In this document: positions 4,146 through 35,438 of the stretch, piece after piece | How the letters are laid out: each line of letters starts with the position of its first letter | Numbering within the stretch: the stretch's first letter is position 1 | Source of the DNA: a virus | DNA: 49,780 nucleotides | Direction: 5' to 3' (one strand) | Virus record (IMG/VR): IMGVR_UViG_3300021478_000040 | Location: 1-49,780 of that record | Position numbers and translations under genes: made by a program | Notes under the pieces: generated by a model | Seen by the model: the letters and a program-made list of their open reading frames with translations, nothing else | What the model was told of the DNA's origin: nothing | The model's database searches: none

Positions 4146-4311
4146 TACGTATTCCCATTTTATCTCGTTTCGACGGATCATCCACATCCAGCATGTCAGC
4201 CTTGGCTTCATGGAGACGGCTTCTCGCGCGATGCTTGTCAGCAAGCTTGCGATGGTCGTCAGCCGTCATACTCTTGACTTTTGCATTGGGTTTGGCGGCT
4301 TTCTTTTTCAT
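4132..4311 (-). CDS. Small basic phage protein, last gene of the portal operon
   Basis: This is a 59-residue Lys/Arg/His-rich protein with no domain I recognise. I start it at 4311 (MKKKAAK) because a good Shine-Dalgarno (TGGAGGA) sits 7 nt upstream; a longer frame to 4326 would need a GTG inside that site. Its 3' end overlaps the terminase 3' end by 14 nt. The position suggests a head-associated accessory protein. Function unknown. Confidence 0.65.
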   Translation of the reverse strand: MKKKAAKPNAKVKSMTADDHRKLADKHRARSRLHEAKADMLDVDDPSKRDKMGIRIRPY

Positions 4312-4874
4312 ACTTTTATCCTCCACCCTGCACCTGAAAACTGCCCTTTGGTAGCACCGGAGTTGATGACAGCTTCGGTGTCTGCATATTTGCTGTTGAA
4401 TTGCTTGTTGCGCGGGTCCATGCCTTTGTACATGTCGCTAAGCTGCTGACGCTTCAGCTTGTCATAAGCCTGCGTGATGCGGATATCGCGCTCCATCAGC
4501 ATAGGTTTCATAATTTTTCCGGTCTTGTCTACGCCGGAAACCTTGCCTTCGAACAGAGCTAACAGATGCGGATCAGTGACCGGCTTCCAATGGATGCGCA
4601 TCGCTGCTGCCAGTTCCTGTGGCGTGTCATTGATGATGTGGAATGACTTCTGCGGATATTTTTCCCGCTCCGGAATGTACAGAGGAAGTTCGCGGTTCAA
4701 AGTCAGACTGGCAATGATAGTGTCAATGTCCTGTGCGTCATTACCGTTTGACAGTGCTGCCATAGCATCATCGACCGCAGGAGCTTCCGGAATATCAGCA
4801 GGCGGGTTTGGCACGAGGTTTTCGGAAAGACCGCCGGTCGGAACAAACGGGCTGAAAGGAGGGGTTTCAGGCAT
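4308..4874 (-). CDS. Hypothetical head-operon protein, 188 aa
   Basis: This soluble 188-residue protein has a Pro-rich N-terminus (about residues 1-35) and then a mixed helical region. There are no membrane segments and no catalytic motif I can name. It lies in the (-) portal operon, 10 nt after the membrane-protein gene and overlapping the next start by 4 nt. Its place between portal-associated genes suggests a role in head assembly or a minor virion component. Function not recognised. Confidence 0.75.
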   Translation of the reverse strand: MPETPPFSPFVPTGGLSENLVPNPPADIPEAPAVDDAMAALSNGNDAQDIDTIIASLTLNRELPLYIPEREKYPQKSFHIINDTPQELAAAMRIHWKPVTDPHLLALFEGKVSGVDKTGKIMKPMLMERDIRITQAYDKLKRQQLSDMYKGMDPRNKQFNSKYADTEAVINSGATKGQFSGAGWRIKV

Positions 4875-6262: not shown

Positions 6263-8260
6263 TTATCCTTGTCCAATTCCGCCATTAGTTGTTCCGGGGG
6301 CTGGTCCAACAATTGGCATACCCATTGGAGGGCTACCGCTTGGCCCTGCCGGATTGGGTCCGCCGGGCGGCCCGACAGCAGTTCCGCCACCAATCGGTCC
6401 CGGCGCACCGTTAAGACCGCCTTGAGGTGGTGGCTGAGCGGGTGGTCCAGCCATTCCCTGATTGTTGCTTCCGATGTTATTCGTGTCACTGTTCAGTTGC
6501 TCCATTGTCTTTTCAAGCTGTGCAACTTGGATACGCATTAAATCAATATTACCGGGGACTTGTGCTGCTTGCGCCAGTGCCAATACGGCTTGTGCGAATT
6601 GCAAAGCTGATGTTGCATTTGCCTTGATACGGTTGGTCTTTTCTTTTTCCATGCTCAGCATTGTTTCAACTTGTTCTTGTGGCGTCGCTTGTGGGTCCGG
6701 CGGTGGTGGCGCAATTAGTTTTTCCGGATTTGGAAAACGCATAGTTTGCGCATAGCGAAGCGCAACTTCATGCGGGTTGAAGATCATCGGTAATTGCAGC
6801 ATGTCATGGTAAGTCTGCGCCGTTATGCCACGATGCATTTCCGTCGCCATGTTTGGATCGGCAGTTATCTCAATAGGCATCCTGCCATCGATATTTTCCG
6901 GCAAATGATCCATGGCATACGCCATGGCCGCGAAAGCCCGTACTTCTTCGGTCATACTGCCGATGATGCGGCGATGGACCGCGCTGTGCTGTTGCGCGCC
7001 GTTATCGATAATGCCTTTTGCCAGAGTAGCGGTCATTGATGCCGGAGCGTTTTCCAGCAAATTCAGGGTACCAGCCAAGCGGTCACCCAAAGTCATCAGC
7101 TTGTCGAGCGACTGAAACATGCCCGGCGTAACTTGCTTGCTGGGAAAAAACGATATCACATCGTTGATGGGGCGACCGTCCGTATTGATGCTGGTCAGGC
7201 GGTTGCCTTTCAATTCAATTTTGTCCGGCAAACCGATGCCGCCAGTCGCGGCAATACCGCCGTTTTCGGATGATAATTTTGCAGTATCGTCTATCGATGC
7301 CAGCAAGCGGTCCGCTGAATGTTCTGTCCTGCCGAGTAACCAGCCGAAGCCGCGTGGAAAAAATGCACCTTTCGGATCGGGTATCATTTTATAGGCGTAG
7401 TAACGTCGCACTGGATGGAATACCAACATCTCTTTGGTGTCGATAATTGTTTTTCTAGTCCAGCGTGGAAGGACTTTGACTGCGCAAGGTACGTCTTCAA
7501 GATTTACTGTAATGGTGTACGGTTCGTCGTAACCGTCACCATCCATGTCCAGCCACATATCGACTTCATAAAAATCCTGCGGTTCTTGCGGGTCGATGTC
7601 GTCAAAATTTGGTTCGTAGTCGATCCAGTGTCCCATTTCAATTGAACGCTGAATTTCATAGGGATACTTTTCAATTTTGTGAGTGATGCGCGGCACTCGA
7701 TCAAGCGTCTTTGCGCTTTCATTTATGATTACTTCATTGACGTTGAGAAACGCGCTGCGAAACTGTCCTTCATGTTCGTCAAACCAGCGTTTGCGCCAGC
7801 CAAGACCGGTCACTGCCATGTGCAAGATCAGCGGGTCGGTATCCGTTACCCAATCCGGGTCTACCGTACGTAGCTGCGAACAAACCCAAGCAGCCAGAGG
7901 CTCGCCACCGGGCTCTGATGCTTTCACCAAATCCGGTTCTGAAAGCAGAGCGCCTGTAATACGTGCGGTAGCTTGAATGACCGACGACAGTATCAATGAA
8001 GTAGAAGGAAGCTGGGTATCTTCCATGCCGCCGGATTGTTCACCGGGCGGCATGCTTCGATTGGCATCTTTGTCAATATCGTCAAGATAGCCGTTGGCTT
8101 TTCCAAGCCATTCCGCCATCGACATTTCATCGATCTTCACCAATTCGATAACGTGATCAGCAAGCTGGTGGCAGTCGCTCTCACCCAGCCGTTCTGCAAG
8201 GTTGCCGATGTCTTCGGGAGCCTTCAGATCGAGTTTTAACTCAGGGCTCTGAAATTGCAT
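6263..8260 (-). CDS. Portal protein
   Basis: This 665-residue protein is the size of P22-type portals. It begins with a helical N-terminus and a core with the LPSTSL...SSVIQATARITGALL type segment. The wing/stem region includes a PRGFGWLLGRTEHSADRLLASIDD helix, and the C-terminus (from about residue 595) is long and Gly/Pro/Asn-rich. It forms the dodecameric ring at the capsid vertex through which DNA passes. It is the first gene of the (-) operon, has a good ribosome site (AAGGATCG) and faces away from the capsid gene across a 107-nt divergent spacer. Placement opposite to the terminase strand is unusual. Confidence 0.85.
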   Translation of the reverse strand: MQFQSPELKLDLKAPEDIGNLAERLGESDCHQLADHVIELVKIDEMSMAEWLGKANGYLDDIDKDANRSMPPGEQSGGMEDTQLPSTSLILSSVIQATARITGALLSEPDLVKASEPGGEPLAAWVCSQLRTVDPDWVTDTDPLILHMAVTGLGWRKRWFDEHEGQFRSAFLNVNEVIINESAKTLDRVPRITHKIEKYPYEIQRSIEMGHWIDYEPNFDDIDPQEPQDFYEVDMWLDMDGDGYDEPYTITVNLEDVPCAVKVLPRWTRKTIIDTKEMLVFHPVRRYYAYKMIPDPKGAFFPRGFGWLLGRTEHSADRLLASIDDTAKLSSENGGIAATGGIGLPDKIELKGNRLTSINTDGRPINDVISFFPSKQVTPGMFQSLDKLMTLGDRLAGTLNLLENAPASMTATLAKGIIDNGAQQHSAVHRRIIGSMTEEVRAFAAMAYAMDHLPENIDGRMPIEITADPNMATEMHRGITAQTYHDMLQLPMIFNPHEVALRYAQTMRFPNPEKLIAPPPPDPQATPQEQVETMLSMEKEKTNRIKANATSALQFAQAVLALAQAAQVPGNIDLMRIQVAQLEKTMEQLNSDTNNIGSNNQGMAGPPAQPPPQGGLNGAPGPIGGGTAVGPPGGPNPAGPSGSPPMGMPIVGPAPGTTNGGIGQG

Positions 8261-10751: not shown

Positions 10752-12173
10752 ATGCCGCCACTTGATATATTCGGTTCTTTTGCAGACCCGTTCAATCAAG
10801 ATCAGGGTGCGGCAAAACTTGTAAATTGCCGGATAATTATCCGCAAACAAGAAGAACAGAAACCAGCACGAACACGTCTCGTTGGTTCTCCCGGCCTGAC
10901 AGAAATTTGCAAACCAACTACATCTCCATGCATCGCATTGTGCCATGCAGTCGGCACCATATGGTCCGCTCATGCAGATGGTAGTATTTATTACGATGTA
11001 GAAACTGCGTCCCCTGTTTATTCCGGTGTTGTAACTGTCGGCGCACCGCCTATCATCCGATTGGCAGAAGACCGCACTTGTCTGGTAATTGCTTCGAACG
11101 GTACCGGTGGCGGTGGTACTGGTTCTGGTTACACCGCAACACAAGGTGGCGGTTTGGTTTTTGCTAATCTGCAAGGAACTATTAATTTTGATCCTTCTGC
11201 GGTTTGCAATCTAGACAATTACACAGTATGGACCGGAGCATCTAATACCTACGCTAATCAATCCGACAAAATGTATTCGTCTACTCCACTGGCACCGGCT
11301 ACCGTTGATGCCAATGCATGGGCAACGGCTGAAGCCAGAGCAGACCCTGTACTGGACGTAGTAACACTTGGCCGTACATTCTGGCCGTTTGGCAGCCGGT
11401 CTGTTGAGATGTGGTATGACCAAGGTGGCAGTTCTGATTTTGCTTTTACCGCATTCACCAACTCGCTGATTGAAGTTGGACTGGCAGCACGTCGCACACT
11501 TGCAAGCATCCACGGCATTGCCATGTGGGTAGGAACAGACCGCCGGGTATGGCTGGGCAGCGGGCAGTCAGGTCAGCCAGTATCGCCGGGTTGGGTTGAT
11601 TTGTTGTTGCAACAAACAGACCTTACCAATCTAACCAGCTATATGTACGCGCAAGGTGGCGACGTATTTTACATACTGACCTCGGAAGGCTCGTGGTCAG
11701 TTGAGATGGCTGTATCATCGATGACGTGGGTTTATCGTCAGACAGCAGAACGCGCGGATCACGCAGGCAGATGCGCCGTGGAACATGATGGTGGTGTCTG
11801 CTACGTCGGTCTTGATACCGGTGAAATCTGTTCACTTAATCTGGCCTCTGCAAGCGAACCGGCCGGATTAATGGAACGATCTATTACCACTATGTGGATT
11901 GGAATGCAGGAAGCTCGCAACGTTATTAATCAGATTGATGTTACCAGTTATATGGGACCGGACGCAGGGACATTTACGCTTCAATGGTCGGAAGATCGCG
12001 CTATTACTTGGAGGGGAACTCGTCAAATTGTATGGCCTGAACCCGGTACCCGCCGTGCTGTTGCGCGTGCCATGGGTACTTCGCGCCGGAGACAAGTACA
12101 GCTGTCTTACATCGGTGCAGCGGCACCATTTGAAATGGATGAATTCTTTGTACAAGTAAGCGAGGGTACCTAG
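10752..12173 (+). CDS. P22 gp10-like tail hub / DNA stabilisation protein
   Basis: The 473-residue, beta-rich protein has the order typical of P22 gp10-type proteins: an N-terminal segment (FGSFADPFNQDQGAAKLVNC) followed by propeller-like repeats with W-V-G-T-D, G-D-V-F-Y-I-L and C-Y-V-G-L-D strands. gp10 sits under the gp4 adaptor and carries the tail needle or spikes. The gene starts directly at the gp4-like stop. Its end overlaps by 4 nt the end of the oppositely oriented phosphoribosyltransferase gene. Confidence 0.75.
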   Translation: MPPLDIFGSFADPFNQDQGAAKLVNCRIIIRKQEEQKPARTRLVGSPGLTEICKPTTSPCIALCHAVGTIWSAHADGSIYYDVETASPVYSGVVTVGAPPIIRLAEDRTCLVIASNGTGGGGTGSGYTATQGGGLVFANLQGTINFDPSAVCNLDNYTVWTGASNTYANQSDKMYSSTPLAPATVDANAWATAEARADPVLDVVTLGRTFWPFGSRSVEMWYDQGGSSDFAFTAFTNSLIEVGLAARRTLASIHGIAMWVGTDRRVWLGSGQSGQPVSPGWVDLLLQQTDLTNLTSYMYAQGGDVFYILTSEGSWSVEMAVSSMTWVYRQTAERADHAGRCAVEHDGGVCYVGLDTGEICSLNLASASEPAGLMERSITTMWIGMQEARNVINQIDVTSYMGPDAGTFTLQWSEDRAITWRGTRQIVWPEPGTRRAVARAMGTSRRRQVQLSYIGAAAPFEMDEFFVQVSEGT

Positions 12174-12847
12174 CCTTGTTTGTTTTTCAGGTAGTCTGCA
12201 AGATACAGATCAAAATCATTGAGACTGAACATCGAGCCAACAGTCAATTCTCTATATAGCAATTTGATTTTATTGTTTTCTGGTTTGTCTGTTTTGTGAA
12301 CTACGGCATAGCAATGGTCTGCAATTGGAATTGCTTGGTTATACAAAACATTAGCAGCATGACAAGCTGTCTTATGCGTCTCTGAAACAATATCATCAAT
12401 TATCATAGCCAGTTTGTTTTTTAGAACTTTACCTTCTAGCCAGTTCTTTTTGCCGTAAGTTTTTCGATCTTTCCTGATGGAAAAAATATTTACGTCAAAA
12501 CCGCGATTACAACACGCAATTGCGATGCCGGTCAGCAATGGTGTCGATGCACTTTCAACACCGCATAATTGGATAGCGCCACTTTTAAGCATCTCTTCAT
12601 ACCTAGACATAAAATCTTGAACGATAACGTTCAAGATTTTAGCATCGAAGAATGCTTCTCTTAAGTAAAATTGCCAAGTATAGTATCCACTGCCTTGATT
12701 TAGATAAGACGGAAGTTCTTTACTTCCGGGTTCTACTCTTACGATACAGTTATCGTTGATGAATTCGCGGACAAACATGCGATCTTCAAGACGTTTGGAT
12801 ATTTCATAAGCGCTGGCCAATGATGAACTTTGAATAGGTAGGGTCAT
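12170..12847 (-). CDS. Orotate phosphoribosyltransferase-like protein
   Basis: This 225-residue protein has the type I phosphoribosyltransferase layout. G-V-E-S-A-S-T-P-L (about 96-104) matches the PyrE substrate region, R-K-x2-K-x2-Y-G-x5-E-G (125-139) matches the flexible catalytic loop of orotate PRTases, and A-M-I-I-D-D-I-V (147-154) matches the PRPP site. The usual T-T-G-G that follows is replaced by S-E-T-H, so activity is uncertain. It lies on the opposite strand inside the neck module, and its start is only 2 nt from the start of the fibre gene at 12850. Its ribosome site (AGAGGAG) lies within that gene. It could support pyrimidine or modified-base metabolism. Confidence 0.65.
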   Translation of the reverse strand: MTLPIQSSSLASAYEISKRLEDRMFVREFINDNCIVRVEPGSKELPSYLNQGSGYYTWQFYLREAFFDAKILNVIVQDFMSRYEEMLKSGAIQLCGVESASTPLLTGIAIACCNRGFDVNIFSIRKDRKTYGKKNWLEGKVLKNKLAMIIDDIVSETHKTACHAANVLYNQAIPIADHCYAVVHKTDKPENNKIKLLYRELTVGSMFSLNDFDLYLADYLKNKQG

Positions 12848-17514: not shown

Positions 17515-17551
17515 CGCGATAGCATTATCGGATAGTGTATTCATTGTCAAG
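17515..17551 (-). promoter_or_regulatory. Control region upstream of the SSB/polymerase operon
   Basis: On the (-) strand CTTGACAATGAATACACT (near 17551-17534) gives a perfect -35 hexamer, with GATAAT-like sequence 15 nt further down. It is followed by the inverted pair GATAGCATTATC (17518-17529). The first element is nearly the same as that upstream of the portal gene, suggesting shared control. Confidence 0.5.
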
Positions 17552-17687
17552 CCTATTAAATTTCGATAAAATTTTTTCCCAAAAATTTTTCAAATTACTT
17601 TCCCACACACTAGAACTAAATATATGAGAACAAAGAAAAACAGTATAATAATCCAGCCGCCATGATCTGGTGGTTCATTCCACCAAC
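17552..17687. other. AT-rich spacer with no gene
   Basis: This stretch holds A/T runs (AAATTTCGATAAAATTTTTTCCC type) and no convincing open frame on either strand. It may be a terminator or promoter region for the flanking (-) genes. Confidence 0.4.
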
Positions 17688-17864
17688 TCATTTCTTATCG
17701 AGCGCGGCGCGGGCAATATCCTGCAAGGTGAAGGCGTCGAGTTCTTCACAATCCATAATTTCCCGCAGCGTCGCCTCCAGCATCTCGATACGCTTTTGCT
17801 GCTCGGCGATGGTGGCGATCAGATATTCGATATGACTAGCAGCATTCTCAGATTGTTTGTTCAT
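17688..17864 (-). CDS. Small coiled-coil protein, 58 aa
   Basis: ATG at 17864 overlaps the stop of the nuclease gene by 1 nt (TGATG), indicating translational coupling. The product is an acidic, almost fully helical peptide (IEYLIATIAEQQKRIEMLEATL, residues 12-33, heptad-like) that ends in ALDKK. Codon pattern and coupling support a real gene. Function unknown. Confidence 0.6.
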   Translation of the reverse strand: MNKQSENAASHIEYLIATIAEQQKRIEMLEATLREIMDCEELDAFTLQDIARAALDKK

Positions 17865-18886
17865 CAGTAACTCGCCTTAAGTTCCGGTTCGGGTTTGTGA
17901 CTAGCCATCTCAGCATACAGTTCAGCTTCGGCTGATAATTTCTTTGCGGCTGACGGAGTGATCGGTTTAACGCCTCTGACACCATGCATCTGATAAAGTT
18001 TTTCCGCAGCCTGACGTTCGTCATTCCAAGCGGTCCACTTGCGGGTTGGCTTTAGTTCTGCACCGTTGACCGTTGCGCCGTTCTTGAGACGGCTGGTCAG
18101 TTCGTTTTCCAAAGTCTCTTTCATGTCGCTGACGCCGCGAATAATCCGCAGCATTCGCACCAACTCGATGGGCAGCAGTATTTGGGGATCGCGCGAGATC
18201 GCCGCCATCAGGAAGTTGGCATCCTGCGACATGGCCGGGCATCTTGAGAAGGCTGGGCACCAGCGGCAATGCGGTCCCGGTATCGGCGGTCCGACATAAG
18301 CAAGGGCGTTCTCAACAGCTTGTCGGTGCGCTTCGACTTCGGCGCGAGTGTGAAGATGCTGTTTGAAACCGTCTTGCTGTTCCGGATTGATTTTGTTCAT
18401 CCAACTGTTAGGCTGGAAGATAACAAGTCGGAACCATTGCACATTCGGATAGTCTTCAAGGAATGTTGCCGCGTAGGTCAGCAATTGTTTGTTGTCTTTG
18501 GCTTCAACATCCCAACTGCCGTTTTTGAAATCAAGAATGGTAATAACTTCCTGTCCAAGATGACTGGCATCCAATTGACCCCAGCATCCTTTCATCAGCC
18601 AGACACGCTTTTCGATCTGCAACTGACCGGCACCCAACTGCTGTACGAAATGGCGGATGTATGCTGCTACTTCGTAATCTGGCATGTTCTTGAGTTGAAC
18701 CCATGGGGCGGGTGGTGGCGGCATTTCACCTGTGCGTAAAGCGCGCTCGACTACGGTATGAACGCGCGTGCCTTCCTGCGCCGCGAGGCTTGGCCGTTGC
18801 GGCAAGCCCTGCGACAGCGTAGCAGATGGCGGACATTTCAACCAGCGGGCAGCAGATGATGGTGCATAGATGGCGTGTTCAGTCAT
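17864..18886 (-). CDS. Cas4/RecB-like nuclease (DUF2800)
   Basis: The 340-residue protein matches DUF2800: S-S-A-A-R-W-L-K-C18 at the N-terminus, E38-G-T-x-V-H43, G-Q-L-D106, and D119-F-K121 as the PD-(D/E)XK core, followed by a Q-L-x-T-Y-A helix. C207, C210 and C216 with C18 form a probable [4Fe-4S] site as in Cas4/AddB. It is a likely ssDNA exonuclease working in recombination or processing next to polymerase and SSB. It overlaps the small upstream gene by 8 nt. Confidence 0.8.
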   Translation of the reverse strand: MTEHAIYAPSSAARWLKCPPSATLSQGLPQRPSLAAQEGTRVHTVVERALRTGEMPPPPAPWVQLKNMPDYEVAAYIRHFVQQLGAGQLQIEKRVWLMKGCWGQLDASHLGQEVITILDFKNGSWDVEAKDNKQLLTYAATFLEDYPNVQWFRLVIFQPNSWMNKINPEQQDGFKQHLHTRAEVEAHRQAVENALAYVGPPIPGPHCRWCPAFSRCPAMSQDANFLMAAISRDPQILLPIELVRMLRIIRGVSDMKETLENELTSRLKNGATVNGAELKPTRKWTAWNDERQAAEKLYQMHGVRGVKPITPSAAKKLSAEAELYAEMASHKPEPELKASY

Positions 18887-19058
18887 TGGTCTTACCTAGT
18901 TGAAACATAGTCATACCTTTTAACGCTTCCTCAATGCTTTTGTACGCGCCGTATTCGAATGGCTTGCAGTTTTCAACGCTGCATATGAGGTAATAAAATT
19001 CTCCATCACACGTGATTTTAGCTTTTAACAGCAGTCCTTCTTTGGAAGTTGTTTTCAT
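18879..19058 (-). CDS. Small hypothetical protein, 59 aa
   Basis: I start it at 19058 (MKTTSKEG), where ATG overlaps the TGA of the upstream gene (ATGA); a longer frame to 19121 is only the shadow of that gene. The product is compact with alternating strands and one helix (SIEEALKGMTMF). No family recognised. It overlaps the nuclease gene start by 8 nt. Confidence 0.6.
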   Translation of the reverse strand: MKTTSKEGLLLKAKITCDGEFYYLICSVENCKPFEYGAYKSIEEALKGMTMFQLGKTND

Positions 19059-19417
19059 TGCCATGGCCATTGATTGTTGATGGTGCAAGAATGCCAAATT
19101 GTCATGTCGCCATGGCGACATGACCGATTGGATAGTTTTTGTTTCCGTCCGGTGTTCTCGATGATGTTTAAATATTTAGCATGAAGAAAGACCGGTCCCA
19201 ATGCCGAATGCGTCACGTCAGCACTATCGACACCCTGCATTGCCAGTCTGATCCAAACTTCATCAGCAGTGAACTCCGGATATATGCGAGCACACCATAC
19301 GACAGCCAAAAAGGCTGCTGCATTCCATGCATCCGGCGCGTGAGCCTCAACTCGTTGCAATGCGTCGCTGATAGCGGCTCTGGTGCGTTCATATGGGTTA
19401 ACTGGAGGTTCGCTCAT
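19055..19417 (-). CDS. Small winged-helix-like phage protein, 120 aa
   Basis: Start at 19417 (MSEPPV) is supported by TGGAGAG 4 nt upstream. The N-terminus is helical (RAAISDALQRVEAH). The C-terminal half (ALGPVFLHAKYLNIIENTGR followed by SCRHGDMTIWHS) has the look of a small winged-helix domain found in proteobacterial phages. Probably DNA-binding; no exact function known. Confidence 0.65.
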   Translation of the reverse strand: MSEPPVNPYERTRAAISDALQRVEAHAPDAWNAAAFLAVVWCARIYPEFTADEVWIRLAMQGVDSADVTHSALGPVFLHAKYLNIIENTGRKQKLSNRSCRHGDMTIWHSCTINNQWPWQ

Positions 19418-19439
19418 GATACTCTCCAAAAAGATGGAA

Positions 19440-19455
19440 GGGAGCTTTCGCTCCC
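19440..19455 (-). terminator. GAAA-loop hairpin between replication genes
   Basis: GGGAGC-TTTC-GCTCCC on (+) reads on (-) as GGGAGC-GAAA-GCTCCC followed by TTCCATCTTTTT. It has a strong stem and tetraloop but an interrupted T-run, so it is an attenuator or partial terminator just after the gene ending at 19461. Confidence 0.5.
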
Positions 19456-19460
19456 AACCT

Positions 19461-19688
19461 TTATCCAGTTTTCTCGAGTTCTGGAATGTAGTCTGCTAGA
19501 ATTTTTAAGCCTTCCGGTGCGATCTGCCATTCTATTGCGCTGCCACTTTTACGAAGTTGATTTACAAACATAAGTTTATGCAGCGATGTTAACGAATGAC
19601 GACCGTTGATCGAAATGCCATAGCGCCACTTACCATCGCGAAGGCTGGTAAGTGCCGCTAGTTGATTTTTAGTCAGTCTATAGCGCAT
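19461..19688 (-). CDS. Small winged-helix-like protein, 75 aa
   Basis: The 75-residue protein has helix-helix-strand character (LTKNQLAALTSLRDG, LTSLHKLMFVNQL, IEWQIAPEGLKIL), resembling a minimal winged helix. It follows the gene ending at 19692 by 3 nt, so it is in the same operon. Possible regulator; not recognised. Confidence 0.6.
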   Translation of the reverse strand: MRYRLTKNQLAALTSLRDGKWRYGISINGRHSLTSLHKLMFVNQLRKSGSAIEWQIAPEGLKILADYIPELEKTG

Positions 19689-28874: not shown

Positions 28875-29081
28875 GCTTTCGGAAAGTCGAGCAAAAACCC
28901 GGTTCCATGCAGTCACAAACACGTTACATGGTACCATGCATTAGATTGGCAGCGGAGCCCGTACAGGTGGGTTTCAGTTGACCGGTATACGATATCGGAT
29001 TTTCAAAAATAACGCATGGGCGGCGAATTCGTGTTTTGTTCTATAGTGTATACGTATACGAATACAACCTACAGGTTGCAG
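28875..29081. other. Non-coding region with short palindromes
   Basis: No convincing gene. It holds CATGGTACCATG (about 28927-28938), a second copy of the AAAATAACGCATGG segment (about 29007-29020) and ATAGTGTATACGTATAC (29043-29059). The content looks regulatory. Confidence 0.4.
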
Positions 29082-29120
29082 ACAAGAAAAATCCCGGTTC
29101 CAATGTATGGGACCGGGATT
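29082..29120 (-). terminator. Rho-independent terminator
   Basis: On (-) a 12-bp stem (29109-29120 with 29090-29101, one mismatch) and 7-nt loop are followed by TTTTCTTG. It ends the transcript of the gene at 29147-29398. Confidence 0.7.
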
Positions 29121-29146
29121 AGTAGTTCCAATGTATTGTGTTGGGA

Positions 29147-29398
29147 TTAATCGTCGTCGCGTTTGAAGTAATAGCTCTGACCGGACCAGATTACGGTTCC
29201 GTTATCGCGTTGACGGCGGAACTCAACGCGGATGTCGCCGGAGCAATTGGGGATGTATCCATTAGGTGGATCAATCTCGCGGTCATACTCGCGGGCAATC
29301 ATGTTCGCGAATTTGTCCATGTCCATTTTCTCGTATGGTCCCATGCGGCGCGTATACAGAACGATGTCGGTTGTGGGTTCATAGATTACGACGAACAT
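29147..29398 (-). CDS. Small hypothetical protein, 83 aa
   Basis: Start at 29398 (MFVVIYEPTTDIVLY) is fixed by TAGGAGG 8 nt upstream. The product alternates strands and one helix (KMDMDKFANMIAREYDREI) and ends in a charged tail. It stands alone between a GTATAC-containing promoter region and a good terminator, which supports a real monocistronic gene. Function unknown. Confidence 0.65.
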   Translation of the reverse strand: MFVVIYEPTTDIVLYTRRMGPYEKMDMDKFANMIAREYDREIDPPNGYIPNCSGDIRVEFRRQRDNGTVIWSGQSYYFKRDDD

Positions 29399-29799
29399 AT
29401 ACAGTCCTCCTATGGGTTGAGCGTATACATTACATGACTGCGGTGCAGCATACAATAGGTTTATATTCACACGTGGGAAGTGTGTGGGATCGCATGTTGG
29501 GAGCATGTTGGGGAATTTTTAGCTGAGTTGAAATTATTGGCTTATTTGGAATAACCCCACATTAAAAAGGCCGCTTTTAGGGTATGTATGTGGGGAATGT
29601 AGGGAGCAAAATATCGTTCCGGGTTTGTTCTTAGATTAGTTGTGCATTGCACAAATTATATTTTCCCCACATCAGTTCCCACGCACTTCCCACACTTTGT
29701 ATACACCCTTAACTCTATGACCGGTTTATGTTAATTCCTCTAGTACTACAACCCCACAAAACAGACTCTAGAATGCCCTTTTTGATGTGGGGAAGCTAA
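29399..29799. other. AT-rich non-coding region with TGTGGG repeats (candidate origin)
   Basis: No gene is visible in 400 nt. Short G-rich units of the TGTGGG(G)AA type occur about ten times on both strands (around 29472, 29483, 29496, 29506, 29555, 29590, 29665, 29676, 29687, 29752 and 29786). TTGTGCATTGCACAA (29640-29654) is an odd palindrome and TGTATACAC lies at 29699-29707. The pattern resembles iterons with AT-rich DNA between them. Confidence 0.5.
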
Positions 29800-30240
29800 T
29801 TAGCGCTTAAATCGGTCGATTATATGCAAAGCCGGGCTGATTTCAGAAAGCGCATAAAAGGCGATTGGAGCACGGTCTTGGGCTGTAAACAGTAGGTTGT
29901 AGCATTCCCCGTAGAATAGCGCTTCGACAACTCCTCTTGCTCTTCCCATTTCTAATCGAGCGTTTACGAGACTTAATGCGTCGGTCGCATGGTTGATGTT
30001 CCATTGCGCAGCCTCGTAACTGAGAACGGCAGCGAATAAGAGATTGCAGGTATCAAGAACCAAATCAGCTGTGGGATTGTCGAGCCGCAGCATTTCGCGC
30101 TTAATCGGCATCAACTCTAAACCCGGTCCTTTCAAGCCGCGCGCGCCAGCGTCAAGGATTTCTTGAAGCTCGTTGCGCGCTTCGTAAATGCGAAGTTCAA
30201 ATTTTCCGGTGAACAGACCAGGAACAAGTTCATTTGCCAT
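29800..30240 (-). CDS. Hypothetical helical protein, 146 aa
   Basis: The 146-residue protein is mostly helical and has no motif I recognise. AAAAGG precedes its ATG. It is flanked on both sides by TGTGGG-type sites (29471-29795, and the inverted TGTGGG-N5-CCCACA at 30277-30293), so it could be the protein that binds them, by analogy with iteron initiators. That is inference from position only. Confidence 0.65.
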   Translation of the reverse strand: MANELVPGLFTGKFELRIYEARNELQEILDAGARGLKGPGLELMPIKREMLRLDNPTADLVLDTCNLLFAAVLSYEAAQWNINHATDALSLVNARLEMGRARGVVEALFYGECYNLLFTAQDRAPIAFYALSEISPALHIIDRFKR

Positions 30241-30241
30241 G

Positions 30242-30270
30242 TTGTGAACCTTTTAGTTTGCGTATACACT
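30242..30270 (+). promoter_or_regulatory. Promoter of the (+) accessory cassette
   Basis: TTGTGA (30242-30247), 17 nt, TACACT (30265-30270), overlapping GTATACACTAAT. Downstream is the inverted repeat TGTGGG-ATTAA-CCCACA (30277-30293) in an operator-like position before ATG 30308. Confidence 0.5.
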
Positions 30271-30307
30271 AATGATTGTGGGATTAACCCACAGGGAGAT
30301 TGACGTT

Positions 30308-30613
30308 ATGAAGCATACCCCCACCGGTCCAATCGAAACTATCGAACTCGCGACCATGGTCGACGAACTCGCGGAACTCAAAGCGATGATCGCTCCGCTA
30401 CAGGAACGGGAACAGGCGCTCAAAGACGCGTTGAAAGCCAGCGGTCGGGAACGCATCGATGGAACCGAGCACACGGCGGTCGTCAGCCTGTCGGAACGTG
30501 AGACGGTTGATGCCAAAGCGTTGCGGGCCGATCTGGGCGAAGATATCATTCGGCCCTATCTGCGCCAAACCCTGGTGACGGTCATCAAGCTGACCGCCCG
30601 CAAAACCCATTAG
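30308..30613 (+). CDS. Conserved phage protein, 101 aa
   Basis: Start at 30308 (MKHTPTG) has AGGGAG upstream. A helical N-terminus (LATMVDELAELKAMIAPL) leads to a small alpha/beta domain with S-E-R-E-T-V-D-A-K-A-L. This layout is common among small early proteins of proteobacterial phages. Function unknown. It opens the (+) cassette. Confidence 0.7.
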   Translation: MKHTPTGPIETIELATMVDELAELKAMIAPLQEREQALKDALKASGRERIDGTEHTAVVSLSERETVDAKALRADLGEDIIRPYLRQTLVTVIKLTARKTH

Positions 30614-30623
30614 GAGCCCGCCC

Positions 30624-30776
30624 ATGCATGGCATGCTAGGGTTGGCTGGGTTGCTGGGGCTGATCGCTTTTGCTTTCGGAGAACGCACCGCTGTGGCTGT
30701 GGCGCGCGTTCTGATCGGGTTGGGGCTGGCGGTCGGGCTGTGGCTGGCGTTCATGATCGTCGGCGAGCGGCTGTAA
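30624..30776 (+). CDS. Two-pass membrane micropeptide, 50 aa
   Basis: ATG 30624 has TAGGAG 9 nt upstream. The 50-residue product has hydrophobic stretches (about 4-18 and 27-46) around a short charged loop (GERT), predicting two membrane passes. It is followed by a strong hairpin. Role unknown; possibly envelope modification. Confidence 0.6.
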   Translation: MHGMLGLAGLLGLIAFAFGERTAVAVARVLIGLGLAVGLWLAFMIVGERL

Positions 30777-30780
30777 GCGA

Positions 30781-30825
30781 GTTCCAATGCCCGGTGACGG
30801 TCTGACCGCTGCCGGGCATAGGAAC
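30781..30825 (+). other. Two-tier hairpin
   Basis: A 14-bp outer stem with one mismatch (30781-30794 with 30812-30825) encloses a 4-bp inner stem CGGT-CTG-ACCG (30798-30808). It lies just after the 50-residue gene, with no T-run, so it may be a structured 3' end or processed RNA. Confidence 0.5.
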
Positions 30826-30831
30826 TTCCTT

Positions 30832-30862
30832 TGGCATCTGGTATACCGTATACCAGATGCCA
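30832..30862. repeat. 31-bp perfect palindrome
   Basis: Each 15-base arm reads TGGCATCTGGTATAC around a single central C (30847). The half GTATACCAGAT recurs at 26366-26376. It could be an operator, a cruciform or a hairpin. Confidence 0.7.
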
Positions 30863-31110
30863 GCAGGTACCGGATCGCGCACGAGGGTGGTCGCGCCGCT
30901 GTCCAGACCGGTAACATCGACTGGCGGCGGCGGAGGCATTTTTCAGACACCACATATAACCAATTCTGTATACGCTCCCAGTTAGAAATTTTCTGTATAC
31001 AGTAGACGCGAAGCGAAGTAATGAAGTTTTATAAGTTATTGACATCCTCGCCGGGATACGGCAAGTTAGCGATATCGTAATCTTTAACCCATCATTCATG
31101 GAGCCACCCC
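30863..31110 (+). other. Non-coding leader of the micro-gene cascade
   Basis: It has no convincing gene. It contains TGTATAC twice (about 30968 and 30998), TTGACA at about 31039-31044 and TTAGCGATATCGTAA (31066-31080). These are candidate control elements for the genes starting at 31111; no clear -35/-10 pair can be fixed. Confidence 0.4.
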
Positions 31111-31275
31111 ATGCAAATCCAGACGGCCACTAAGGAAGAACTCGGTCTGCTTATTCTGGGACTGCGGTCGTTCTACATTGCCGACCAGCGCGACCTTCAC
31201 AAACGCCTGCTCCAGCAACTCGAAAACGAACTACGCACTCGCTACGGCATGCGGTTGGAAAACAACGCGTCATGA
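31111..31275 (+). CDS. Small helical protein, 54 aa
   Basis: The 54-residue product (MQIQTATKEELGLLIL...) is helical with leucine heptads (LHKRLLQQLENELRTR). A ribosome site (GGAG) precedes ATG 31111. Its end overlaps the next start (ATGA). It is the first gene of a cascade of overlapping small genes. Function unknown. Confidence 0.6.
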   Translation: MQIQTATKEELGLLILGLRSFYIADQRDLHKRLLQQLENELRTRYGMRLENNAS

Positions 31276-31355
31276 TCTATGATTATGCCATTCCCGGCCT
31301 GATAATAGTGATATCGTTAATTATTTTCATCGTAGCAATGAAAGCCAGACCATGA
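31272..31355 (+). CDS. Single-pass membrane micropeptide, 27 aa
   Basis: ATG overlaps the upstream TGA (ATGA). The product is almost all one membrane helix (PGLIIVISLIIFIVAM) with a basic end. Its own stop overlaps the next start in the same way. Small size makes it uncertain, but coupling on both sides argues for translation. Confidence 0.5.
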   Translation: MIYDYAIPGLIIVISLIIFIVAMKARP

Positions 31356-31417
31356 TTTTTGACAGCCGGCATATTGCCGTTAGCGTTATCACTTTTTTAA
31401 TCTGGATGTACCTGTGA
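31352..31417 (+). CDS. Membrane micropeptide, 21 aa
   Basis: It has an ATGA overlap with the gene before and a GTGA overlap with the gene after. The product is MIFDSRHIAVSVITFLIWMYL: a charged N-terminus and a hydrophobic helix. It is the shortest member of the cascade and could be real or only a reinitiation relay. Confidence 0.4.
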   Translation: MIFDSRHIAVSVITFLIWMYL

Positions 31418-31602
31418 GTAAGCGCCCGGTCACCATCCGCAACATGGCGTGGCGCAGGGGACTGGCCATCCACAAGGCCAGACGCGGCGGCTGGTACGTC
31501 ACCCTGATCGGCAGCGGCATCCTCTACGCCACCCACTCTTGGCCTAAAATTGAACAATTCATCAGGACTTACCCGGTCCTCGTTTCAAGGAAGCAGGCAT
31601 GA
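31414..31602 (+). CDS. Small basic protein, 62 aa (GTG start)
   Basis: GTG at 31414 overlaps the preceding TGA (GTGA). The 62-residue product is basic (RNMAWRRGLAIHKARRGGW) with a short hydrophobic segment (YVTLIGSGILYA). It continues the coupled series. A 9-codon frame (31599-31628) then links it to the next gene. Confidence 0.55.
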   Translation: MSKRPVTIRNMAWRRGLAIHKARRGGWYVTLIGSGILYATHSWPKIEQFIRTYPVLVSRKQA

Positions 31603-31627
31603 CCGGGCGAAAGCAGAGGTTTTTATA

Positions 31628-31882
31628 ATGACCATCGATAGCGATATCGGAAAACACTTCACCGCGCAATTGCGCCGCCTGACCCTCGACACCATCGATA
31701 CCTGCCGCCGCGCCGATCTCGATGACCACATTGTCGCGGCCATGCTGGTCACAGTGCTCGGCCATGAACTGGCGCTGACCGGCCATATCATCGGACTTGA
31801 CCAGCCGCAGTTTCTGGATTTATGCCATGATTTGTGGCTGTCGATGCAGCGGCGGCAGCGCAACCGGAAGCAGCGGCCATGA
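31628..31882 (+). CDS. Hypothetical protein, 84 aa
   Basis: Start at 31628 with AGAGG upstream. The product is helical, with a hydrophobic middle (HIVAAMLVTVLGHELALTGHII) and a basic tail (RRQRNRKQR). The first codons contain GATAGCGATATC (31637-31648). Its end overlaps the next start (ATGA). Not recognised. Confidence 0.6.
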   Translation: MTIDSDIGKHFTAQLRRLTLDTIDTCRRADLDDHIVAAMLVTVLGHELALTGHIIGLDQPQFLDLCHDLWLSMQRRQRNRKQRP

Positions 31883-32112
31883 ACCACTGTCCGAATTGCC
31901 ATAAATATCTCGACGCCGCCACCTGCATCTCCAGTCAGGGTGCCGCTCCGGAGCCGGACGACATCACCATCTGCGCCTACTGCGGTCACCTGATGGCGTT
32001 CGACGACGCTCTCAGGCTGCGTCAACTCACCAGCACCGAGATATACGCCGTGGCAGGCGATCCGCTGATACTGGCGGCGCAACGCGCGAGGAGCAAAATC
32101 AATGAGCGATAA
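31879..32112 (+). CDS. Zinc-ribbon protein, 77 aa
   Basis: ATG 31879 (MNHCPNCHKY) overlaps the upstream stop. C-P-N-C (4-7) and C-A-Y-C (34-37) form a zinc ribbon. The C-terminal part is helical. It overlaps the methyltransferase start by 11 nt, suggesting it may act with that enzyme. Confidence 0.65.
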   Translation: MNHCPNCHKYLDAATCISSQGAAPEPDDITICAYCGHLMAFDDALRLRQLTSTEIYAVAGDPLILAAQRARSKINER

Positions 32113-32785
32113 CAAAACCTTAAGAATGCAGCACCACTATGCCCGCTTACGCAGTTTCGAGCAGCGGATGCGAAATCCGGGCTTCAGGTGCATGTTTGAT
32201 CAACGCAACCAAGCGTTGAGCAATGCGCTGCCCCGGCTGTCGAAGCCATTGTCTCGCTGCCGCATCCTTGATTTCGGCTGCGGTCACGGCGTGATGTCCG
32301 GCTGGCTGCGCAATCACGGCGCGCGGCCCGAACATCTGACCGGCACCGATATCCAGCCCGCGCGCATTGCTGAGGCCCGCCGCCGCTATCCCGACCTCAA
32401 CTTCATGGTCAGCGGCGACTGGCTGCCGTTTCCGGACAAATCGTTCGACGTCGTGATCTGCTTCACGGTATTCTCCTCGATCCTCGATCCGGCCATCCGG
32501 CAGCGGACCGCAGCCGAAATTACCCGCGTGCTGGCACCGGGCGGTGTCATCATCTGGTATGACATCCGCTATCCCAACCCGGCCAACAAGGACTTGCGCG
32601 CGATGACGCTATTGGATATCCGGCGGCTGTTTCCGTTGCTGGATGACCAGCTGGAGCCGTTGACCTTGCTGCCGCCGCTGGCAGAACGGCTGGGACCGCT
32701 GACCGACGCGCTCTACCCGCTCCTTGCCAGCTTCCGGTTTCTGCGCAGTCATTATTTCGGTCTGCTGCTCAAGAAAAAATCATGA
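32102..32785 (+). CDS. Class I SAM-dependent methyltransferase
   Basis: The 227-residue protein has Rossmann motif I I-L-D-F-G-C-G-H-G (55-63), acidic D83 in G-T-D-I, D106, and motif IV F-D-V-V-I-C-F-T-V-F (115-124). This is the Methyltransf_11 pattern of small-molecule, lipid or sugar methyltransferases. It lacks the N-P-P-Y or D-P-P-Y of N6-adenine DNA methylases, so DNA is not the obvious target. Placed among membrane micropeptides, surface (LPS or lipid) modification is an attractive but unproven role. Confidence 0.8.
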   Translation: MSDNKTLRMQHHYARLRSFEQRMRNPGFRCMFDQRNQALSNALPRLSKPLSRCRILDFGCGHGVMSGWLRNHGARPEHLTGTDIQPARIAEARRRYPDLNFMVSGDWLPFPDKSFDVVICFTVFSSILDPAIRQRTAAEITRVLAPGGVIIWYDIRYPNPANKDLRAMTLLDIRRLFPLLDDQLEPLTLLPPLAERLGPLTDALYPLLASFRFLRSHYFGLLLKKKS

Positions 32786-32907
32786 AGCTCCTGATTATCA
32801 TCACCTTATGGTTTTCCGTCATCGGCTGCCTGTTCGGAGGTTTCCTGCTCTACAGCCGTGTCTCTCCCGACGCCAGCCATCCTGAAACCATCGGCAACCA
32901 GTTTTGA
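32782..32907 (+). CDS. Membrane micropeptide, 41 aa
   Basis: It has an ATGA overlap with the methyltransferase stop. One membrane helix (LLIIITLWFSVIGCLFGGFLLY) has a Cys after V-I-G that could suit a lipobox (V-I-G-C), so it might be a tiny lipoprotein. It ends in a TTGA overlap with the next gene. Confidence 0.5.
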   Translation: MKLLIIITLWFSVIGCLFGGFLLYSRVSPDASHPETIGNQF

Positions 32908-33191
32908 ACTGGTACCGGATTTTCGGCCTAATTATTTTACCGCTGTCATTGTGGCTGGTGATTATTCTGCTATGGATGTGGCTCTTCAAAGGCTGGTCGA
33001 TGCCCTTTACTCATCCCAATTTCGGCAAGATGGCGCGCGTCGAACTTTGCGGTCGCGAGGTCCGGCTGGTTTTCGTCGCCGACAATATCGTCGAAGCCAG
33101 TAATCTTGCCGGGTATCTGGTCGGAAAACTGAAAGATGGTGCAGTCAACATCACCCTGATGGGTCGGCCAACCAGTGTAGAGGAAACTTGA
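32904..33191 (+). CDS. Membrane-anchored protein, 95 aa (TTG start)
   Basis: The TTG at 32904 overlaps the preceding TGA; there is no ribosome site, so translation is probably by coupling. An N-terminal membrane helix (IFGLIILPLSLWLVIILLW) is followed by a soluble domain of about 60 residues with strands (RVELCGREVRLVFVAD). It closes the cascade. Confidence 0.6.
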   Translation: MNWYRIFGLIILPLSLWLVIILLWMWLFKGWSMPFTHPNFGKMARVELCGREVRLVFVADNIVEASNLAGYLVGKLKDGAVNITLMGRPTSVEET

Positions 33192-33219
33192 TGTTCAACT
33201 TAAACAGAGGAGGAAAAAC

Positions 33220-33792
33220 ATGCGACCATTTCTAGCTTACATCATGCCGGTCGATAGCGGTCCGGTCGATCCGGGGTTTGGCGTCGGTGGACCCGGCGGT
33301 CCCGGCAGCCCCGGTGGACCCGGAGCGCCGGGGCCGGTGTTTCCATCTCACCCGATTTACAATCCACCCTATCCCGATCACAGCCTGCCGCCTTTCCCAG
33401 CGCATCCGATTGCACCGGGCGGTCCCGGCGGGCGTCCTCCGGGCATCTGGGGTCCGCCTGACATGGCTCAGGGCTGTTGGGGTGGCGGCATGGGACCGGG
33501 TGTCAAACCGCAGCCGCCTTCCGGAGGAACGCCGTCGCATCCCATCGTACTGCCGCCGGGAACCATTCCGGGGTTGAAGCCCGAGCACCCGATCTACATC
33601 CCGCCAAGCAGTCCGGGCGTGCCTACCCATCCGATTGTAATGCCGCCGGAAGGCGGCACCGAACCGCCGGAAGTGGCGGCGAACTGGGACGCCAGGACCG
33701 CTTGGACCGAACAGACCGGCTGGGTGGTGGTGCTGATGCCTTCGGAGCAGCACCCCGGCGTGCCGACGCCATCGACAGCGCCGCCAGCTTAA
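33220..33792 (+). CDS. Pro/Gly-rich protein with HPI repeats
   Basis: The 190-residue protein has a collagen-like G-x-P run (about 23-42), then five H-P-I units (S/A/E/T-H-P-I followed by Pro-rich turns), and a short strand at the end (GWVVVLMPSE). AGAGGAGG precedes ATG 33220. Similar HPI-repeat proteins occur in Rhizobiales phages, probably as structural or surface components; function is not established. Confidence 0.65.
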   Translation: MRPFLAYIMPVDSGPVDPGFGVGGPGGPGSPGGPGAPGPVFPSHPIYNPPYPDHSLPPFPAHPIAPGGPGGRPPGIWGPPDMAQGCWGGGMGPGVKPQPPSGGTPSHPIVLPPGTIPGLKPEHPIYIPPSSPGVPTHPIVMPPEGGTEPPEVAANWDARTAWTEQTGWVVVLMPSEQHPGVPTPSTAPPA

Positions 33793-33842
33793 GTTAGGGT
33801 CTGCGTGCTCAGTTGTGGTGACCGAGCATGGCGTATCTTGCG

Positions 33843-33882
33843 AACCTCCCGGTGTGAACCCCTTTCACCGGGAGGTTTTTTA
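33843..33882 (+). terminator. Strong Rho-independent terminator
   Basis: A perfect 12-bp stem (AACCTCCCGGTG with its complement 33866-33877) and 11-nt loop precede TTTTTTAATT. It ends the (+) cassette, and the A-run before it gives some activity on (-). Confidence 0.85.
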
Positions 33883-33900
33883 ATTAAAAGTCGTTCCTCC

Positions 33901-33990
33901 TCATGGCCGTATCAGCAATGCGAAGATGATGACAGCAGTCAGGCAGAACGCGGCGATGCTGATGATTTCATAAATATCGAAATCATTCAT
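33901..33990 (-). CDS. Membrane micropeptide, 29 aa
   Basis: ATG overlaps the stop of the upstream gene (ATGA). The product has an acidic N-terminus and one membrane helix (SIAAFCLTAVIIFALLI). It is like the micropeptides in the cascade at 31272-31417. Confidence 0.45.
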   Translation of the reverse strand: MNDFDIYEIISIAAFCLTAVIIFALLIRP

Positions 33991-34187
33991 TTCTTGCCGA
34001 TCTCCGGATATTTGCGTTTGACGGCTGAACGTACTTTGGCCTTTTCCGCAGGCGTGCCGTGCTGGCTGACCCGCGCCAGCGCGTTGCGGGCATGAGAAGC
34101 GTCTTCGATGGGGTAGGCACGCTTGCCGGGCAGCGCAAAACTCTTCTTTGACAATGATTTGCGTCCTTTGGTGGTCAATTTTGCCAT
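33987..34187 (-). CDS. Conserved small basic protein, 66 aa
   Basis: Start at 34187 (MAKLTTKGRKSL) has AGGAGG 6 nt upstream. The pattern LPGKRAYPIEDASHARNAL and KAKVRSAVKRKYP is a small family frequent in phages and bacteria. It is probably helical and nucleic-acid- or protein-binding; function unknown. It is divergent from the lysis genes. Confidence 0.7.
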   Translation of the reverse strand: MAKLTTKGRKSLSKKSFALPGKRAYPIEDASHARNALARVSQHGTPAEKAKVRSAVKRKYPEIGKK

Positions 34188-34215
34188 TGGTTCCTCCTGT
34201 GTTATGCTTGGTACC

Positions 34216-34488
34216 ATGACAGAACTCAGGGAATGGGTAAAATCCAATTCTGCCTTGGTGTATTTTTTGTTTGCGCAGGCCGTCGCGCTGATCAGCGGTG
34301 GTGCGTGGGCGCTAAGTTATTTCAACACGCTTGAGAACCGCGTAAACACACTCGAAACGCGAGGAAGTCCGCATCTCAATATCATCGACAACCGGCTCAC
34401 AGTTTTGGAGAGCCAGACCAAGGAAAACAAGGAACGGCTTGAAAGGGTCGTTGACGTCATGACCAAGAGGTTGAACATAAACCCATGA
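34216..34488 (+). CDS. Membrane protein with coiled coil, putative holin-like
   Basis: Start at 34216 (MTELREWV). Of 90 residues, one membrane helix (LVYFLFAQAVALISGGAWALS) is followed by heptads (LENRVNTLE, IIDNRLTVLESQ). It heads a coupled trio that ends in an endolysin gene, so a holin or spanin-like role is likely. The start has no clear ribosome site. Confidence 0.6.
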   Translation: MTELREWVKSNSALVYFLFAQAVALISGGAWALSYFNTLENRVNTLETRGSPHLNIIDNRLTVLESQTKENKERLERVVDVMTKRLNINP

Positions 34489-34718
34489 CTGAGCGCGGTG
34501 CCAACATTGCGAGCCTGCTGGATGCTCTCAAGAGCCAACCATTGATGCTAGGGCTGCTGTTGGTGATTTTCGCGCTGATTGGTTTTGTCTATCTGCAATC
34601 TTCGCAATTTAATCAGCAACGTGCCGAGAATGTTAAATTATTCGTAAGCGTTCAGGCTGAAGTTCAGAAACTGTTGAGCCAATGCATCGTGCCGCCGCCG
34701 GGAGGGACTGGAAAATGA
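34485..34718 (+). CDS. Small membrane protein of the lysis cassette, 77 aa
   Basis: It has ATGA overlaps with both neighbours. One membrane helix (LMLGLLLVIFALIGFVYL) is followed by a polar helical part and a C-I-V-P-P-P-G-G end. It could be a holin, spanin subunit or antiholin. No lipobox. Confidence 0.65.
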   Translation: MTERGANIASLLDALKSQPLMLGLLLVIFALIGFVYLQSSQFNQQRAENVKLFVSVQAEVQKLLSQCIVPPPGGTGK

Positions 34719-35266
34719 ACGAAGAACACAGTTTAACGGTTGCAGGCGCGAAATTGATCCAACATTTCGAAGGATGCTTAAAGTTGCATGAGGGTAAATA
34801 TAAAGCTTATAGGTGTCCAGCTAATGTGCTGACCATCGGATGGGGGCATACCAATCATCATGGACGAAAATTCGACGCGGCTTCAATTTGGACGGCTGAA
34901 GAATGCCATCAGGCATTCATGGAAGACATGCAAGGCTTTGAGCGCGACGTCCGCAAGATGGCTACCGTCCCGCTCACAGATTATCAGTTTTCTGCGCTCG
35001 TTTCCCTTGCATACAACATCGGTAGCTCAGCGCTCAAAGGATCAACCCTGCTGCGAAAACTCAACTCCGGCGATTACGTCGGAGCCAGCCACGAATTCAA
35101 AAAATGGAACAAGGCCGGAGGAAAAGTCTTGAAGGGACTGACGCGACGACGCGCCAGTGAAGCAATCATGTTCGCCGGTCTCAGCGATGAAGATTTCGAC
35201 GGTGTGGCCGACGATCCGATGCCGCAACAGGTGGATGATCCTGATGAAACCGCTAGTAATGGTTGA
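34715..35266 (+). CDS. Endolysin (GH24 lysozyme)
   Basis: The 183-residue protein starts at 34715 (MNEEHS), coupled to the membrane gene. The phage lysozyme catalytic triad type E-C/D-T is visible as E19 (HFEG), C34 and T40 in VLTIGWGHT, with an extra ~6 residues between E19 and C34. C-terminal L-x-R-R-x-S-E-A is typical of GH24. No signal or SAR segment, so release needs a holin. It degrades host murein at lysis. The acidic tail (about 160-183) is unusual. Confidence 0.9.
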   Translation: MNEEHSLTVAGAKLIQHFEGCLKLHEGKYKAYRCPANVLTIGWGHTNHHGRKFDAASIWTAEECHQAFMEDMQGFERDVRKMATVPLTDYQFSALVSLAYNIGSSALKGSTLLRKLNSGDYVGASHEFKKWNKAGGKVLKGLTRRRASEAIMFAGLSDEDFDGVADDPMPQQVDDPDETASNG

Positions 35267-35438
35267 GTGGGCCGTTTACGATTATATTCCGTGCAGACGG
35301 CGTGTAGTCATCGTTACGCTTGGTGAAGCCTTGCAATGGGTGAAAGAAGGCGCAGAGCTAAACATGTATCCGATTGACCCGGAACTGTTCAAGGAATTCG
35401 AATATGTCGGTCAACCCCCGTCCCAACGCGCAGGCTGA
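35244..35438 (+). CDS. Small hypothetical protein, 64 aa
   Basis: ATG 35244 has AGGTGG 9 nt upstream and lies inside the end of the endolysin gene (23-nt overlap). The product has strands (RRRVVIVTL) and helix (GEALQWVKEGAE) and a Tyr/Pro-rich end. Unknown. Confidence 0.5.
   Translation: MKPLVMVEWAVYDYIPCRRRVVIVTLGEALQWVKEGAELNMYPIDPELFKEFEYVGQPPSQRAG

Follow-up and report, generated by a model that had tools for sequence, protein, structure and literature searches.

A chain of tiny overlapping genes in an uncultured tailed phage: a probable exchangeable accessory cassette with a methyltransferase related to bacterial polysaccharide-locus enzymes

Gene-order comparison indicates that the chain of tiny overlapping genes at positions 31111-33191 of the window (the whole stretch analysed, IMG/VR virus record IMGVR_UViG_3300021478_000040, positions 1-49,780) occupies a slot for swappable accessory cargo and is not one fixed machine, because the same slot is empty in one related phage (L061) and differently filled in others (G005 among them). 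The region is probably best understood as a hypervariable accessory operon that is modular in content and translated by reinitiation, with a methyltransferase as cargo that would act on a glycan of the host surface. The related uncultured phages help to separate what appears to be a lineage-wide habit, the use of tiny overlapping accessory genes, from cargo that is specific to one lineage.

The window encodes a terminase large subunit, a capsid protein, a head-closure protein, a tail fibre and an endolysin, together with a DNA polymerase, an exonuclease, a helicase and a primase/helicase. Caulobacter, Roseobacter and Pelagibacter phages are among the phage-record matches of the capsid protein, and the endolysin is similar both to a gene-transfer-agent endolysin and to SpmX; the host of this uncultured tailed phage is therefore probably an alphaproteobacterium. 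The terminase query recovered 26 IMG/VR loci, including long contigs usable for gene-order comparison, and the coiled-coil gene at 30272-30613 (plus strand) recovered further related loci; some of the contigs compared are fragments. Most structural and replication genes are about 50-97% identical to those of related phages, and the region from the coiled-coil gene to the lysis and tail genes is mostly unmatched. Elsewhere in the window, a 763-aa gene at 304-2595 has a GC3 of 0.29, which is unusually low, and matches neither a known family nor any gene of ten related contigs. An orotate phosphoribosyltransferase-like gene (12170-12847, minus strand) lies on the opposite strand between head genes; just two of the ten contigs have it.

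The chain consists of ten frames on one strand covering 2081 nt. All nine frames and the 9-codon link described in an earlier note, with their positions and joins, are present in the sequence. Consecutive frames overlap by 4 nt (ATGA, GTGA or TTGA), by 1 nt (TAATG) or, at the single exception to this stop/start pattern, by 11 nt between the 77-aa and methyltransferase genes. A further TGATG extends the chain to a 14-codon frame (33191-33235), within which the gene at 33220-33792 starts. In dinucleotide-preserving shuffles, a span of 2081 nt was reached in none of 60 randomizations of the whole contig (largest 1825) and in none of 500 of the region (largest 2058). The chain is longer than every shuffle, yet the excess is modest and not every link is meaningful. 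Since other coding regions hold chains nearly as long (seven members at 33805-35438, in the lysis region, and seven on the minus strand at 17525-19530), dense packing is a general property of this contig.

There is a real chance, which we nevertheless place below even, that the very small frames (27, 21, 9 and 14 codons) are for the most part not genes and that counting every NTGA as a start has in part produced the chain, given that a frame ending in NTGA (N other than C) supplies the next start codon for free. These frames have no homologues; the 9-codon link arises by chance in 60% of shuffled spacers and the 27+21-codon link in 3-6% (weakly significant); and when only frames of at least 20 codons are counted, the longest chain has five members, a length often reached by shuffles. 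However, the full chain beats all shuffles, and the cassettes of related phages also carry small membrane peptides, unrelated in sequence. Scores based on codon usage told the small frames apart from other frames only poorly and are not counted for or against them.

The upstream edge of the slot is the coiled-coil gene, found in nine related loci at 39-74% identity, directly followed by a 50-aa membrane protein (30624-30776, plus strand) kept in seven loci. Just before the cassette lies a GTATAC-palindrome-rich region (30835-31005). The window contains 19 copies of GTATAC against 5.1 expected, densest at 28985-31000 and with single copies scattered from 8282 to 42263. In the pre-cassette interval, the window and four related phages have four to eight copies; L065-L068 have no copy there. 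These copies often take the form GTATACnGTATAC within a larger palindrome, and a conserved GGTACCG...GGTGGT...GGTACCGGTAA block is seen downstream of the palindromes. Together, palindromes and block have the look of a promoter region or of a region bound by a regulator, and the GTATAC-rich region is probably the promoter/operator of the cassette in a subgroup of the related phages.

The genes of the chain, all on the plus strand, open with a 54-aa accessory frame (31111-31275), preceded by an SD-like GGAG, whose homologue in G005 (57% identical) sits in the other early operon of that phage. Two candidate genes follow through ATGA overlaps: a 27-aa membrane peptide (31272-31355; hydropathy 3.0, clear transmembrane segment, no homologue) and a 21-aa hydrophobic peptide with a weak transmembrane segment (31352-31417). 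The 62-aa basic protein (31414-31602, GTG start, charge +11) belongs to a recurrent family with homologues about 44-55% identical in G006, G018, G023, L061/L062 and L065. Its AlphaFold model is alpha-beta-beta-beta-alpha (pLDDT 84); phage records gave no match for the protein, and the predicted fold has no significant match in the PDB or among viral structures. The 9-codon frame (31599-31628) is probably a coupling spacer or a product of chance. It leads to a second recurrent family, an 84-aa protein (31628-31882) predicted to form three helices (pLDDT 88; no significant match among viral structures), with homologues in G005, L061/L062 and G023 and three in G018. The 77-aa protein (31879-32112) carries CPNC...CAYC, a CxxC...CxxC pattern with weak zinc-ribbon matches, and has no relative in the related phages or in a single-protein IMG/VR scan. 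After the 227-aa class I SAM methyltransferase (32102-32785; Methyltransf_11, 1.4e-18) come a 41-aa peptide (32782-32907, ATGA overlap) with hydropathy 2.5, a clear transmembrane segment and no convincing homologue, and a 95-aa protein (32904-33191, TTG start within a TTGA overlap) with an N-terminal transmembrane helix and no homologue in the related phages or the single-protein scan. The earlier note assigned the product types correctly: the 27-, 41- and 95-aa products are clearly transmembrane and the 21-aa one weakly so, and the basic protein, the cysteine-pair protein and the methyltransferase are as described.

A 190-aa Gly/Pro-rich protein (33220-33792), with a strong SD (AGGAGG) upstream and weak matches elsewhere in G018, closes the plus-strand run. 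Behind it the slot also contains a minus-strand pair overlapping by 4 nt, a DUF6582 protein (33987-34247) and a 29-aa membrane peptide (33901-33990). The downstream edge is a pre-endolysin membrane protein (34216-34488, plus strand), whose homologues in G005, L061 and L062 likewise lie shortly before the endolysin. The endolysin of the window (34682-35266, plus strand; phrog_7, 1e-51) is 71% identical to that of G005.

At the equivalent place, behind the coiled-coil gene and often a GTATAC-rich region, related phages carry other chains of small overlapping genes, with at least eight 4-nt overlaps in the run 987-4533 of the compared stretch of L061. Only the 62-aa and 84-aa families recur in these cassettes, and they persist in phages lacking the methyltransferase, the zinc ribbon and the 41-aa and 95-aa membrane proteins, none of which has a convincing counterpart in any related phage compared. 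The junction between the two recurrent genes is itself variable: a 9-codon bridge in the window, a direct overlap in G018 and an intervening 125-aa gene in L061. From the 84-aa gene to the pre-endolysin gene there are 11 nt in L061 and 2.3 kb in the window, where the interval holds the zinc-ribbon, methyltransferase, 41-aa, 95-aa and 190-aa genes and the minus-strand pair. In G005 the same interval encodes a protein of 218 aa whose N-terminus is signal-like and whose tail resembles PEPxxWA-CTERM (31.8 bits against a curated cut-off of 35); this PEPxxWA-CTERM-like secreted-protein gene lies on the reverse strand of record IMGVR_UViG_3300047409_000125, near 18.0-18.7 kb. Over a wider region, other relatives carry an HNH-like gene whose score falls just under its cut-off, a SprT-like gene or a gene for a pentapeptide-repeat protein; the last of these is within the slot of L065, at about 7300-7990. 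Flanks are thus conserved while content is exchanged between relatives. At the DNA level, the cassette of the window matches nothing in the phage record collection, and no other contig was found to have its full gene list.

This comparison bears on the proposal of a single co-translated system. The dense, co-directed chain makes coupled translation something to be expected, and similar overlapping chains do occur in the relatives; the "single system" part is not supported, because relatives hold other genes and the genes that persist change their neighbours and junctions. The relatives offer no opportunity to see the methyltransferase kept and the small frames lost, the pattern that the earlier note named as refuting, because no phage relative carries the methyltransferase.

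The methyltransferase scores 67.7 bits against Methyltransf_11 (PF08241; curated cut-off 21.2) and has a SAM motif, LDFGCGHG, that is conserved in the alignment with its kin. It has no relative in the single-protein IMG/VR scan, and a profile scan of IMG/VR returned only distant viral methyltransferases. Its best kin are bacterial, from Mesorhizobium escarrei and from genomes of the same class and phylum, at 36-47% identity over most of the length and with a common C-terminal stretch, FLRSHYFGL. In a maximum-likelihood tree with few bacterial sequences, the phage enzyme and six bacterial proteins form a clade of seven rows (support 99/97), and 16 other viral methyltransferases and one bacterial paralogue fall outside it. 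Five of the six bacterial members are encoded in polysaccharide loci: with Poly_export, glycosyltransferases, a UDP-sugar dehydrogenase and an epimerase in M. escarrei (L001), in L072 and L073 between GT2 enzymes and flippases of the MurJ type, adjoining GT2 in L074 and in L093, on a reading of the sequences themselves, alongside glycosyltransferases, a sugar transferase and a gene resembling a flippase. The sixth (L076/L094) lies outside any polysaccharide locus. The phage gene has no glycosyltransferase, flippase or export gene as neighbour and is therefore named here a phage homologue of the clade and not part of such a locus. Its GC3 of 0.76, above the 0.29-0.68 of the large phage genes sampled, fits acquisition.

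From this ancestry and locus context, the substrate is most likely a glycan of the host surface, and the surface of the infected cell may be altered as a consequence. The earlier suggestion of action at the envelope is plausible for the methyltransferase, given its kin, and survives for that product only. A literature search on phage-carried surface methyltransferases found nothing directly to the point. It is unlikely, if conceivable, that the enzyme instead targets nucleic acid or protein, in counter-defence or host takeover, and that its likeness to polysaccharide-locus enzymes reflects ancestry only. Class I methyltransferases switch substrate easily, and the enzyme has generic, low-scoring matches to phage families of tRNA methyltransferases and DNA methyltransferases as well as to Mad2. 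However, these matches span only the SAM-binding core, and the full-length kin, including the FLRSHYFGL stretch, are mostly polysaccharide-locus enzymes. A reading as a DNA methylase was ranked below the glycan reading, and a reading as a defence system was rejected, PADLOC having given nothing beyond a partial match of the methyltransferase core to Mad2 (118 of 492 positions).

It is also rather improbable, slightly more so than a change of substrate, that 31879-33191 is one functional unit acquired together, in which the membrane proteins would keep the methyltransferase close to the inner membrane, the site of lipid-linked sugar synthesis. The four genes of this interval overlap one another, all four are absent from relatives whose flanks join or hold other cargo, and the bacterial kin of the methyltransferase adjoin flippases and membrane glycosyltransferases. 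Against this, no homologue was found for the three partners, so that co-inheritance cannot be shown, and the bacterial enzymes lack comparable small membrane partners among the larger genes read. Least probable of all is an extension of the same idea, in which zinc ribbon, methyltransferase and two membrane proteins would form a compact glycan-methylation unit that alters the surface of the infected cell and keeps out other phages; the slot, which in G005 holds a PEP-CTERM-like surface protein, would then be dedicated to surface-modifying cargo.

The hypervariable accessory operon thus remains the favoured reading, and its working can be outlined. The cassette would begin behind the coiled-coil gene and the GTATAC-rich region and reach to the lysis genes, with a single transcript starting after the control region and covering the small genes. 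Ribosomes would stop and then restart at the overlapping stop/start codons, from gene to gene. The genes would be exchanged as modules, so that their products, largely independent small accessory proteins, need not act together, and the membrane peptides may be unrelated to the methyltransferase. During infection, the latter would most likely methylate a sugar of exopolysaccharide, capsule or LPS, or of a lipid-linked precursor, and the methylated glycan could mask the phage receptor against competing phages.

Termination-reinitiation at overlapping stop/start codons couples translation in bacteria and archaea (PMC6728339), and the 4-nt and 1-nt overlaps of the ATGA/TGATG type are identical here. 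The chain differs in stringing together many such links. The methyltransferase shows full-length homology to the bacterial polysaccharide-locus clade (36-47% identity) but is embedded among tiny chained genes, with neither a glycosyltransferase nor a flippase alongside. Phage serotype-conversion clusters comprise gtrABC and O-acetyltransferases, gtr combining a flippase with a bactoprenol glycosyltransferase. Like them, the cassette carries a phage gene expected to alter a surface sugar; unlike them, it would do so by methylation and has no glycosyltransferase, flippase or acetyltransferase. No match to a gtr-type flippase or bactoprenol glycosyltransferase was found among the cassette proteins. 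No integrase was seen among the proteins of the window that were searched, so that a lasting surface change of a lysogen is not supported.

The closest comparison is with the hypervariable accessory regions, early or "moron" type, of tailed phages, in which conserved flanks enclose rapidly exchanged small genes. The cassette shares with them the conserved flanks, the small genes mostly of unknown function and the dense overlaps on one strand, and differs in lacking a DNA-level match and in a gene list found in no other contig. The earlier impression that no described system has this layout is accurate for that particular list; exchangeable series of tiny, overlapping genes are commonplace in phages. 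Apart from its methyltransferase cargo, the cassette appears to be ordinary phage accessory biology, and that enzyme, whose clade is one of bacterial sugar-coat enzymes, provides a concrete case, open to experimental test, of a phage gene that may alter the surface of its host.
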